A DNA stretch of 34,535 bases from Bacteroidota bacterium (GTDB lineage Bacteria; Bacteroidota; Rhodothermia; Rhodothermales; JANQRZ01): the NCBI GenBank assembly GCA_038746285.1, contig JBCDKT010000042.1:1-34535 (forward strand), written 5' to 3'. This document shows, in pieces, positions 14,816 through 18,850 of this stretch. The stretch's first letter is position 1. The number at the start of each line of letters is the position of its first letter. Made by a program: the position numbers and the translations under genes. The notes beneath the pieces are model-generated. The model saw only the letters and a list, made by a program, of their open reading frames with translations. It was not told the DNA's origin and did no database searches.

Positions 14816-17800
14816 TCAGAAGTCCAGCCCGATGGAGAAGTAGAGCTGGGCCTCGCCGAAGTCGCGGCCGTCGTAGGGCCAGGCCCAGTCGAGCCGCAGC
14901 GGGTAGCCCAAGAGGATCGTCCGAAGCCCGACACCCGCGCCGACGAGCAGGTCGTCGAAGACTTCCCGCCCCTCGTCGTTCAGCCGGCGGAGGTTGAAGT
15001 CGTCGGAGTAGATCACGCCTGCGTCGAGGAAGGCGGTGCCCTGGAGGTTGTAGAGCGGGAGGACGGGGATCGGGCCGGGGAGGATCGCGGCGAAGAGCGG
15101 GAACCGGAACTCGGCGTTGACGAGCCCGAAGCGCGAGCCGCTCCGCTCGTCGATCCCGAAGCCGCGCAGCGGGAGCACCGGCGTCAGGAAGGCGAAGTCG
15201 TTGACGTCGTCGATGGGGATGTTCTGGAAGCGGGGGTTGATCCAGTTCTGCACCCCGGCCGCGTAGAACCGCTGCGGGTTCGGCCCGAGGGAGAGGCCCG
15301 CGCTCGCCCGCAGCGCGAGCGAGTAGAACCGCCCACCGAGGTACTGACGTGCGTCGCCGAGGAGCGTGGCGAACGTCACCGACGGGCCGGGGCTCCCCTC
15401 CAGCCGGAGCGCGTACCGCCGCCCGCCTGCGGGAAACAGGAAGCCCGGCTCGGTCATGTCGACCGTGTAGGTCGCCGACGGGTTGAAGACGGTCCGGCTG
15501 CGCGACTGGAGCGCCGGGTCCACGAGGTCCGTCACCGACGTGCCGATCACCGACAGGTCGGTCTCGACGCGGCGGAACTTGTCGAGCGGGTACGACGCCG
15601 AGACCGTGAGGCCGTAGTTGCGGTAGCGGAAGACCGTCTCGCGCGAGAAGTCGGTGAGCTGCCGGGCGAGGTGGAAGCCAGTGAGGGCGAAGTCGGTCCG
15701 GCGCGGGAGGTAGCGGTAGGAGAGCAGGTAGTCCGAGTTGCGGAGGTCGATGATGAGGTTCGTCGCGGCGAAGACCTGGTGGTTGCCGAGCATGTCGGAG
15801 AAGAGCATCTGGGTGACGCTCTGGACCCCGAAGATGGCGTCGTAGCCGACGTTGCCGTAGACGATGTCCGGCGTGAACCGGAGCCGGTAGCGCTTCTCCT
15901 TGAAGGAGCCGTCCTCGTTGAGGTTATCCAGCGATTCGAAGCGCGGGCGGACCTTCTCCTCACGCCGCCGCTGCGCCTCCTCGAAGGCCTCGGAGAAGAC
16001 GTAGTTGCGGAAGTCGACCCGGACCTCGCCGTACGCCGTCGAGTCCGCCTCGCCCTCAGCCGTTTCGCCGGACGCCTCCAACGTAGGGGCAGGTCTCGTG
16101 CCTGCCTCCTCGGGGCCGACACGCGGGTCTGCCCGTACGCCGCCAACTCCGCTCGTCCCGACGGCCTCGGTGGAGGCGATCAGGTCCTCGGGCAGGCGGC
16201 GCGTGCGCATCGGGTCGGCGAGGAAGGGGGCCTCGCTGGCGGCCTCGCGCAGGATCGGGTTGCCGTCGAGCGTGCCCGCCCCGGCGAGGGCGACGGCCGG
16301 GGCGTCCTCGGCGACGGTGCCCTGGACGCGCTGCGCCCACACCGTCGGCCGGAGCGTCTCGCCCTCCAGGGTGCGTCCGAACGGGTCCCGCAGGAGGTAG
16401 ACCGACTGCACGCCCTCTTTGAGCGCGACGAGCGCCGCGCGCGACCCGTCGGCGCTGAGGCTGACCTGGGTGACGCCGACCATGAGGTCCGTCAGCGGAC
16501 GCTCGGCCCCCGTACCGAGGGTGTGCTCCCAGAGGTTGTAGACCCCGTTGCGGTCCGAGACGAACAGCACCCGGCCGGGGTCGGACCCGAAGGCGGCGCT
16601 CTGCTCGTCCCAGTCGGCGCTGTCGGTCAGCCGGTCGAGCCGGTGCGGCGCGTCGAGGTCGAGGCGGTAGAGGTCGAACTGCGCGTAGTCGTGCCCGAGG
16701 AGGTCGAACGCTTCGGCGGTGTAGCGGCCGGTCCGGACGTGCGCGCCCCGGTCCGAGTGGAAGACGAGCGAGCGCCCGTCGGGGCTCCACGCCGGCTCGT
16801 GGTCGCTGAAGATGTCGGCCGTGTAGTTCATCGTCTCGCCCGATTCCAGGTCGAGCACGTAGAGGTCGGACTGCGGCCCGGCCGTCCCCTCGAAGGCGAT
16901 CCGGTCCCCCGCCGGGCTCCACTTGACGCTTACGATGGCGTCGATGTCGGGGACGCGGTAGTGGACCGCCTCGCGCGTGGCGACGTCCACAATCGCAATG
17001 GCGTCGCTCTGCCCGCTCTTGACGGCGACCGCGAGGCGCTCCCCGTCCGGCCCCCACGAGAGGCCGGGCGTGAGGATGCGGAGGCTCTCGAACTGCGGGT
17101 TGTTCTGCCCATCGATGATCTTGCGCGGCGGCGCGTCGCCGGTCGTCGAGACGACGTAGACGTCGAAGAGCGGACCCTTCGCCGTGAGGAACGCCACGCG
17201 GTCACCCTGCGGCGAGATCGCCGGGCTGGTGTTGTAGAACCCGCCGTTCTTGTCGGTGACGAGGGCTTTTGCGATCTGGTCGAGGTCCTCGCGCGCGGCG
17301 ACCTCGGGGAAGTAGACGGCCTTGAGCGTGTTGTGCCAGCGCTCGGAGAGGTCGTCGAGGCTGAGGCCGGTGGCGCGCTTGAACGAGCCGCCGACGGACC
17401 GGCTGACGCGGAGGCGCTGGAGGATCTCGGTGATCTTCTCGCGGCCGTACTGCGCCGCGATGTAATCCCACACGCCCTGCCCGCCCCGGTAGGCGAAGTA
17501 GCCGCCGAGCCCCTGGATCGGCGCGAGGTAGTCGTTCACGACGGCGTCGCGGACGAACATGTCGGAGTTCGTGTCCCACCCGAGCGCCGAGTACTCGGCG
17601 ATCCCCTCGTTGAACCACAGCGGGATCTGGAGCCGGATGCCGTTCTGGATGATCGACTGGATCGATCCGCCGTAGAACATGTCGTTGACGACGGCGTGGA
17701 CGATTTCGTGGTGGATCACCCGGCGGAAGTCGCGGTAGTCGCCGGTGAACGGGACGGCGACGCGGTTCTTGAACAGCTCGGTGACGCCGCCGATGCCCTC

Positions 17801-18139
17801 GGAGTAGATCGGCAGGTTGACGGCGTTCGTGACGACGAAGTCGTTGTGGCTCTGGTAGACGAGGAACGGAATCCGGTCGGTGATCCGGTAGCCGAAGAGC
17901 TCGCTGATCTGAGCGTAGGCGTCCTCGGCCGCGTGGGCGGTGAAGTCGGCGAGGGCGCGCCCGCCCGGCTCGTAGTAGAAGATGTCGAAGTGCGTACTCT
18001 GGAGGTACTGCCAGTCGAGGTTTTCGTACTGGACCTTGTTCTTGCCGAAGCGGAAATACTGCGCCTCGGCCACGCCCGGCCACCCCCCCGTGACGAGGGC
18101 CGCGACAAGGGCGAGGGGTAGCAGGCAGCGGCGAGGCAT
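14816..18139 (-). CDS. Metallopeptidase-like / TolB-like propeller / outer-membrane barrel fusion protein
   Basis: A 1107-residue protein. A signal peptide (MPRRCLLPLALVAALVTGGW, cleaved after about AEA) leads into a gluzincin-like domain with HEIVH at residues 144-148 and a downstream NEGIAEY whose Glu178 fits the third zinc ligand. A beta-propeller of TolB/WD40-like repeats follows (for example SPQGDRVAFLT, SWGPDGERLAVA, WSPDGRSLVFHSDRG). The C-terminal third is rich in alternating strands (RLRFTPDIVYGNVGYDA, LRGFGIDERSGSRFGL) and ends LYFSIGLDF with a terminal Phe, the mark of an Omp85/BamA-like barrel. It is probably an outer-membrane protein. In-frame repeat sequence is inserted at about residues 667-686. 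The start at 18139 gives a good signal peptide. Confidence 0.85.
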   Translation of the reverse strand: MPRRCLLPLALVAALVTGGWPGVAEAQYFRFGKNKVQYENLDWQYLQSTHFDIFYYEPGGRALADFTAHAAEDAYAQISELFGYRITDRIPFLVYQSHNDFVVTNAVNLPIYSEGIGGVTELFKNRVAVPFTGDYRDFRRVIHHEIVHAVVNDMFYGGSIQSIIQNGIRLQIPLWFNEGIAEYSALGWDTNSDMFVRDAVVNDYLAPIQGLGGYFAYRGGQGVWDYIAAQYGREKITEILQRLRVSRSVGGSFKRATGLSLDDLSERWHNTLKAVYFPEVAAREDLDQIAKALVTDKNGGFYNTSPAISPQGDRVAFLTAKGPLFDVYVVSTTGDAPPRKIIDGQNNPQFESLRILTPGLSWGPDGERLAVAVKSGQSDAIAIVDVATREAVHYRVPDIDAIVSVKWSPAGDRIAFEGTAGPQSDLYVLDLESGETMNYTADIFSDHEPAWSPDGRSLVFHSDRGAHVRTGRYTAEAFDLLGHDYAQFDLYRLDLDAPHRLDRLTDSADWDEQSAAFGSDPGRVLFVSDRNGVYNLWEHTLGTGAERPLTDLMVGVTQVSLSADGSRAALVALKEGVQSVYLLRDPFGRTLEGETLRPTVWAQRVQGTVAEDAPAVALAGAGTLDGNPILREAASEAPFLADPMRTRRLPEDLIASTEAVGTSGVGGVRADPRVGPEEAGTRPAPTLEASGETAEGEADSTAYGEVRVDFRNYVFSEAFEEAQRRREEKVRPRFESLDNLNEDGSFKEKRYRLRFTPDIVYGNVGYDAIFGVQSVTQMLFSDMLGNHQVFAATNLIIDLRNSDYLLSYRYLPRRTDFALTGFHLARQLTDFSRETVFRYRNYGLTVSASYPLDKFRRVETDLSVIGTSVTDLVDPALQSRSRTVFNPSATYTVDMTEPGFLFPAGGRRYALRLEGSPGPSVTFATLLGDARQYLGGRFYSLALRASAGLSLGPNPQRFYAAGVQNWINPRFQNIPIDDVNDFAFLTPVLPLRGFGIDERSGSRFGLVNAEFRFPLFAAILPGPIPVLPLYNLQGTAFLDAGVIYSDDFNLRRLNDEGREVFDDLLVGAGVGLRTILLGYPLRLDWAWPYDGRDFGEAQLYFSIGLDF
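16082..16139. repeat. REP-like element inserted in frame within the protease-barrel gene
   Basis: The outer arms CGTAGGGGCAG (16082-16092) and CTGCCCGTACG (16129-16139) are inverted with one mismatch. Inside the left arm is a GGCAGG...CCTGCC hairpin and on the right a related GCGGGTCTGCCC. The layout and GTAGGGGC start link it to the palindromes at 7894 and 18547. The host protein segment across it (RADPRVGPEEAGTRPAPTL) is low-complexity and joins the propeller to the barrel. Confidence 0.7.
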
Positions 18140-18244
18140 AGCGGCGTGGATCGGACAGGGAAGACTAGCCCATTTGCCCGCCCGATGCAAGGCAAACTGG
18201 ACGGGCGAAGGTTACAACGCGCTCCGGCCGGGGTCTATTGGGCG

Positions 18245-18850
18245 ATGCCCTACGACCCGTCCCGTCACCACCGCCGCTCGGTCCGGCTCCGCGGCTACGA
18301 CTACGCGCAGCCGGGGGCGTACTTCGCCACCGTCTACCTCCATGATCGTCAGGTCTCCCTTCTTGGCGACGTTCGGGACGGCGTGATGCGCCTGTCCGAG
18401 GCCGGCGCAATCGTGGAGTCTGCGTGGGACCACCTGCCCTCGCATTATTCGCACGTTCGCCTCGACGTGTTTGTGGTGATGCCCAACCACATCCACGGCA
18501 TCATCGGCCTCGTCGACCCAACCGACGGCTCATGCGCCACCGATGTCGTAGGGGCGGGTTTGAAACCCGCCCCTACGGGGGCCTCGCAAAACGGCCCGCG
18601 ACGGCCGAAACGGCACGGCCTGCCAGAAATCGTGCGCGGGTTCAAAACGTTCTCGGCCCGGCGCATCAACCGGGCGCGTGGAATGTCCGGCGTACCTGTG
18701 TGGCAGCGCAATTATTGGGAACGCGTCATCCGCAACGAGCGCGAACTGGACCTCGTGCGGCGGTACATCCGCGACAACCCGGCCCGCTGGCACCGCGACC
18801 GGATGCACCCAAACCGGACAGACCCAGGCAGACGGCTGCCTCAGGCGTAG
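18245..18850 (+). CDS. REP-associated tyrosine transposase (RAYT, Y1_Tnp/IS200-like HUH fold)
   Basis: A 201-residue protein starting MPYDPSRHHRRSVRLRGYDY. It carries the HUH motif PNHIHGII (His82, His84), then WQRNYWERVIRNERELD, and the RRYIRDNPARW segment that holds the usual catalytic Tyr (Tyr174). RAYTs cut and move REP hairpins and are single-copy chromosomal genes, not part of an IS. The start was placed at ATG 18245 because the family begins there; an upstream ATG is in frame but unsupported. The gene carries a 31-bp palindrome in frame (residues about 101-111, VGAGLKPAP). It overlaps the stop of the convergent ABC permease gene by 10 bp. Confidence 0.9.
   Translation: MPYDPSRHHRRSVRLRGYDYAQPGAYFATVYLHDRQVSLLGDVRDGVMRLSEAGAIVESAWDHLPSHYSHVRLDVFVVMPNHIHGIIGLVDPTDGSCATDVVGAGLKPAPTGASQNGPRRPKRHGLPEIVRGFKTFSARRINRARGMSGVPVWQRNYWERVIRNERELDLVRRYIRDNPARWHRDRMHPNRTDPGRRLPQA
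18547..18577. repeat. 31-bp perfect palindrome inside the RAYT coding sequence
   Basis: Arms of 15 bp (CGTAGGGGCGGGTTT at 18547-18561 and its exact reverse complement at 18563-18577) are separated by one base. It encodes V-G-A-G-L-K-P-A-P in frame. Translated copies of such palindromes (GAGLKPAP and similar) are, in my recollection, common at this position in RAYT proteins. Confidence 0.85.

Follow-up and report, generated by a model that had tools for sequence, protein, structure and literature searches.

A RAYT gene with a REP hairpin in its reading frame, likely the cognate target of the protein it encodes

How RAYTs recognize their REPs, and how the two partners jointly shift specificity without losing each other, is the question raised by a gene in the 34,535-nt stretch of DNA analyzed here (the window), in which a REP-like palindrome forms part of the coding sequence. 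The gene opens with ATG. The first-pass annotation had identified it as a RAYT from His82 and His84 of the HUH motif and from YIRDNP, an identification borne out by the translation, by profile matches and by the predicted fold. The protein matches the NCBIfam profile for REP-associated tyrosine transposases (REP_Tyr_transpos; E=4e-15, 56 bits, below the 80-bit equivalog cut-off), Pfam Y1_Tnp (E=1.3e-4, 22.5 bits, slightly below the 23-bit cut-off) and a PHROG family of unknown function (E 7e-5). The best PDB match of its AlphaFold model (pLDDT 82) is 4er8_A, the complex of E. coli TnpAREP with REP DNA (Z 12.2, 3.0 Å, 129 residues). With a HUH motif and a single catalytic Tyr, the TnpAREP/IS200 fold and a multi-copy REP family in the same genome, the gene is a RAYT that encodes a putative single-strand HUH nuclease of TnpAREP subclass 2.4. 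Its features are collected in Table 1; the WQ motif has been described as belonging to the region of TnpAREP that recognizes GTAG (PMC6006769), and residues 97-110 form a low-confidence linker in the model that is predicted to be disordered.

Table 1. Coordinates of the RAYT gene in the window, its motifs and helices, and the palindrome inside it
Feature	Position	Strand	Basis
RAYT / TnpAREP gene, 201 aa, subclass 2.4 type (RAYT group 4)	18245..18850	+	ORF, profile matches, structure model
Helix alphaB and its end, residues 52-68	18398..18448	+	AlphaFold model, covariation
HUH motif, N81-H82-I83-H84	18485..18496	+	sequence
In-gene double-foot REP, CGTAGGGGCGGGTTT-G-AAACCCGCCCCTACG	18547..18577		covers residues 101-111 (VVGAGLKPAPT)
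Helix alpha3, residues 125-141, GLPEIVRGFKTFSARRI	18617..18667	+	AlphaFold model, covariation
WQ motif, W153-Q154	18701..18706	+	sequence; PMC6006769
Tyr motif, Y174-IRDNP	18764..18781	+	sequence

The palindrome between the HUH and Tyr motifs, described at first reading as 31 bp long with perfect 15-bp arms, is exactly that: its arms (18547-18561 and 18563-18577, 15 nt each) are 100% complementary around a 1-nt center. It has GTAG...CTAC feet in the double-foot form and the hallmarks of the GTAG superfamily, a foot beside the hairpin and dispersed copies, and its predicted hairpin is stable both as DNA and as RNA (z -3.2 in both). The expectation that further copies would be found in the host genome (4.08 Mb, 134 contigs) also held, since GGGGCGGGTTTNAAACCCGCCCC occurs there in 15 places within 3 mismatches and its reversed control in none. 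That genome encodes three RAYTs, about 50% identical to one another, each holding a perfect palindrome of its own at the corresponding site, no two alike (GTAGGGGCGGGTTTGAAACCCGCCCCTAC, GTAGGGGCGACCGGCCGGTCGCCCCTAC and GTAGGGGTTTGATTAATCAAACCCCTAC). The general pattern GTASGGG..CCCSTAC occurs in 71 places (control, 1), among which all three palindrome types recur elsewhere in the genome. A crude codon-position test left 19 of 28 dispersed host REPs with no coding-like frame across them, but as it also missed known coding cases it is uninformative on whether these REPs are extragenic.

Two further REP observations concern the host. A dispersed family in its genome (G000) has the core CGCAGCA (e.g., C1:41151, C15:40116, C23:48224); a search for a RAYT of this type there with a broad profile (E up to 0.01) found none, and in G002, a genome of the same family, a RAYT (L234) carries this core. 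The host's own RAYT of this type would have been lost or left unassembled. In the window itself, a degenerate REP doublet at 16082-16139 (GTAGGGGCAGGTCTCGTGCCTGCC... and ...GGGTCTGCCCGTAC, outer arms 11 nt) sits within the adjacent gene on the minus strand (14816-18190), where it encodes a linker, ADPRVGPEEAGTRPAPT.

We surveyed 190 distinct homologous RAYT genes, a sample in which close relatives of the window gene are overrepresented; the ranking of the 80 GTDB-wide loci followed their similarity to this gene, and whole genomes were sampled from its phylum. A strong palindrome lies between HUH and WQ in 133/190 genes, as against 2/190 in the upstream part of the gene and none in the downstream part. 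Synonymous recoding of the linker in the 111 members with a recognizable GTAG foot gave arms of at least 10 bp in 1.8% of trials, compared with 92% observed, and for both reasons the linker palindromes cannot be put down to chance. In about 30% of homologues the inner palindrome is missing or decayed rather than strong, so it is not essential to having a RAYT. The same 111 genes hold 62 distinct half-sites and 48 seven-base cores; the palindrome is perfect over 14 pairs in 79 of them, and all four Watson-Crick pairs are in use at positions 10-14. A tree of 92 genes, built from the backbone with alphaB and alpha3 left out, requires at least 66 changes of the core.

What is kept at this site is DNA, with changes seen in both arms of the palindrome. 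The statement in the first-pass annotation that GAGLKPAP recurs here was right insofar as VGAG[LF]KPAPT is encoded by one of the roughly 48 cores, but the peptide itself is not conserved, and a conserved GAGLKPAP peptide was rejected as an explanation, the encoded residues varying between cores and reading frames; a literature search for a palindrome-encoded peptide gave nothing relevant. Nor do homologues keep the residues over diverged, non-palindromic DNA, as that annotation had allowed: they keep the palindrome, and the residues differ, in two frames. Different genes translate the core CACGGCA in two different frames, the third frame giving a stop (the TAG of the foot), and the use of both frames therefore indicates that the DNA palindrome, not a peptide, is maintained. 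Between L037 and L038, 87% identical in DNA, the palindrome lengthens from 28 to 29 nt and is still perfect, with the frame restored by a 10-nt downstream deletion.

Several members depart from the common form. The RAYT linkers of L056 and L057 (genomes G018 and G004) hold tandem half-site repeats, GTAGGGGCACGGCG..CGCCCT, whose center base differs between the two species in most repeats, as if homogenized. The near-identical RAYTs L095 and L103 have G or C at the palindrome center (Leu or Phe), which fits an inversion of the palindrome and equally well a point change. A subgroup with alpha3 of the VVQWFKTMTTNEYIRG type (L049, L059, L204, L212) has palindromes that are mostly imperfect and whose loop is larger (GADPRVRP type). 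In L181 (G082), the assembly has Ns at the center of the in-gene palindrome, which suggests that hairpins of this kind break assemblies. The RAYTs L264, L269 and L279, which lack a clear inner palindrome, carry WH where the others have WQ; their GTAG recognition is possibly altered.

The core of the palindrome covaries with only two parts of the protein, which are separate from each other. In 92 representatives with less than 75% identity, mutual information with the core peaks at residues 60, 63, 64, 67 and 68, at the end of alphaB, and again at 125, 128, 131, 132 and 135-139, with helical spacing along alpha3; it is nearly flat at 140-192. The alphaB-end residues covary mainly with the apical base of the core, and one helical face of alpha3 with core positions 10-14. 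In independent sister pairs, alpha3 identity is 0.84 where the core is the same and 0.45 where it differs (p=2.7e-5), and alphaB identity is 0.46 against 0.24 (p=2e-4), whereas backbone identity is 0.63 and 0.64. The nearest neighbor by alpha3, taken among genes with N-part identity below 0.45, predicts 4.28/7 core bases, compared with 2.94/7 for nearest neighbors by the N-part and the C-terminal part and 2.99 by chance. In 24 genes fetched afterwards, three of which share one core and alpha3 and are thus not fully independent, alpha3 predicted 4.81 core bases, compared with 3.54 for the N-part and 2.89 for random choice (p=0.0013 and 3e-5). Single residues, numbered from the invariant Lys of alpha3, follow single features of the core: Ser at K-2 goes with GCA in about 21/24 genes, Thr at K+1 with T at position 12 in 30/30, and Glu at K-6 with GGT in 27/27. 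In E. coli TnpAREP alpha3 is the DNA-binding helix, and contact of its equivalent with group 3 hairpins has been suggested but not proven (PMC8266576). Covariation does not prove that alphaB or alpha3 contacts the hairpin. What the sequences show is a palindrome that is a REP, persists as DNA at this site and is coupled to the likely DNA-reading elements, the end of alphaB and alpha3.

The coupled parts also move together. In two adjacent RAYTs of G065, residues 1-55 and the C-terminal part are nearly identical and the middle is swapped, with alphaB, palindrome and alpha3 changing together (CGGGTTC with EIIRQFKTFS, CAATTCA with KIIGYFKMNV); L167 and L162 differ by a swapped middle in the same way. 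The in-gene palindrome likewise matches the REPs nearby. A GTAG palindrome lies within 600 nt outside the gene in 26/99 cases, and where inner and outer palindromes are both present their cores agree at 5.96/7 bases (chance, 3.09), with 82% matching in at least 6/7. Across genomes of the order, GTAGGGG palindromes were found in 13/21 that bear a RAYT and in 7/39 that do not (p=0.0008).

These results are best explained, and we think quite likely, by a subclass 2.4 RAYT that carries its own cognate REP hairpin in the reading frame, within a specificity cassette. The encoded protein very probably has the in-gene palindrome as its cognate substrate, and the window protein would bind and cut the window hairpin. 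Under this model, the variable upper stem of the hairpin would be read by alpha3 and the end of alphaB and the constant GTAGGGG foot presumably by the conserved WQ region, with the palindrome placed in the disordered linker between the two reading elements. Since the palindrome lies between alphaB and alpha3, recognition surfaces and substrate would form one contiguous cassette, which could be inherited, transferred or swapped as a unit. The embedded copy may act as an inseparable founder and source of dispersed REPs, with self-regulation as a possible further effect. We lean, somewhat less firmly, toward the cassette being held together by selection, such that a change of target by recombination or transfer brings the matching target with it, the gene is a permanent home and source of its REP family, and a residue-to-base code can be read from genomes. 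Counting against the explanation as a whole, some host REP families (core CGCAGCA) have no matching RAYT there.

An alternative suggested by Quentin et al. 2018 is that the in-gene copy is a neutral passenger with no role, a random REP insertion that survived because the flexible linker tolerates it. The predicted disorder of the linker, the occurrence of REPs in unrelated genes (PMC3733652) and the missing or decayed palindrome in about 30% of genes speak for it, and cognacy could arise without selection if a RAYT acts close to its own gene. Nevertheless, we consider it unlikely, because the palindrome is present in most homologues, in many phyla and with 48 cores, and its symmetry stays perfect through the core changes counted on the backbone tree. 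The frame restored by deletion in L038, where the palindrome is 1 nt longer than in L037, also argues against a passenger, as do genomes in which the palindrome has hardly any other home: G206, G044 and G125, all complete or nearly so, have it only inside the RAYT (G125 has otherwise background-like matches only), and the sole three perfect copies in G065 all lie within RAYTs. It is much less probable still that the covariation reflects mere linkage, the palindrome and alpha3 being adjacent and moved jointly by recombination tracts, even though cassette exchange between paralogues is real. The two separate peaks speak against linkage, as does the HUH strand (residues 72-86), which lies between alphaB and the palindrome and is flat in mutual information with the core while alphaB beyond it covaries. 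In 40 pairs whose cores differ although both outer parts share at least 70% identity, identity is 0.73 in the HUH strand but 0.41 in alphaB and 0.54 in alpha3. Moreover, RAYTs with no clear inner palindrome mostly still predict their flanking REPs (L233, L040, L072, L088 and L121, though not L132).

A role of the hairpin in self-regulation is a different matter, as it is compatible with the cognate-cassette explanation and would be its physiological role. The RAYT would bind or cut the hairpin in its own gene, single-stranded at replication, or in its mRNA, or the hairpin would slow translation; in each case the enzyme would keep its own level in check. The stability of the hairpin in DNA and RNA, its cognacy to the encoded protein and the genomes whose sole copy is inside the gene are consistent with such a role, which we regard as conceivable but doubtful. 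Among mismatched palindrome pairs, RNA wobble was not significantly favored (18 sense vs. 10 antisense, p=0.18); the symmetry takes in both feet, more than an RNA hairpin by itself would need; and genes with no inner palindrome can instead have a cognate REP just upstream, as in L233.

In-gene REPs were already known: double-foot REPs lie in frame between HuH and Y in TnpAREP subclass 2.4, and the palindrome in the window is therefore no oddity of a single gene (Quentin et al. 2018, PMC6006769). The same authors noted that such inserts may have little impact on the protein. A self-contained cassette would supply a reason for in-gene REPs that were earlier left as probably neutral. Each gene carries its probable substrate, and hundreds of natural enzyme-substrate pairs should therefore be readable from sequence alone, yielding a testable residue-to-base recognition code.

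Among related systems, the IS200/IS605 transposases (IS608, ISDra2) share the HUH-Tyr fold and single-strand hairpin recognition; unlike in those elements, left and right ends were not seen around the window gene, and nothing here points to autonomous transposition. The E. coli TnpAREP/REPtron (subclass 2.2, 4er8), the only solved TnpAREP structure that we found, shares the fold, the HUH/Tyr core, recognition of GTAG-footed REPs and a DNA-binding alpha3, but in E. coli the REPs that flank the gene are bulged, imperfect palindromes, whereas that of the window has the double-foot form, is perfectly palindromic and lies within the gene. In Stenotrophomonas and relatives, each RAYT likewise has its own REP family, and the two form a coevolving pair (Nunvar et al. 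2010, PMC2817692); there the evidence was that tree shapes matched, with REPs that flank the gene, whereas here the REP is in the gene and the coupling is resolved to residues and bases. The closest relatives are those of subclass 2.4, found in Bacteroidetes, Cyanobacteria and scattered phyla (PMC6006769), with which the window gene shares the NH[IFV]H and WQ motifs (here NHIH and W153-Q154) and the in-frame double-foot REP. Their HuH-Y spacing is long and variable (median 88 aa), and H82 and Y174 in the window are 92 residues apart; the YIRDNP of the window differs by one residue from YIxNNP, a comparison with the published motif rather than a subclass profile. The text of PMC6006769 does not report the insert as a cognate substrate or the covariation with alphaB and alpha3. 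New here are the survey counts over 190 genes, the prediction of cores from alpha3, the match between inner cores and flanking REPs, the genomes whose palindrome lies only inside the RAYT and the covariation of the core with the end of alphaB and with alpha3.
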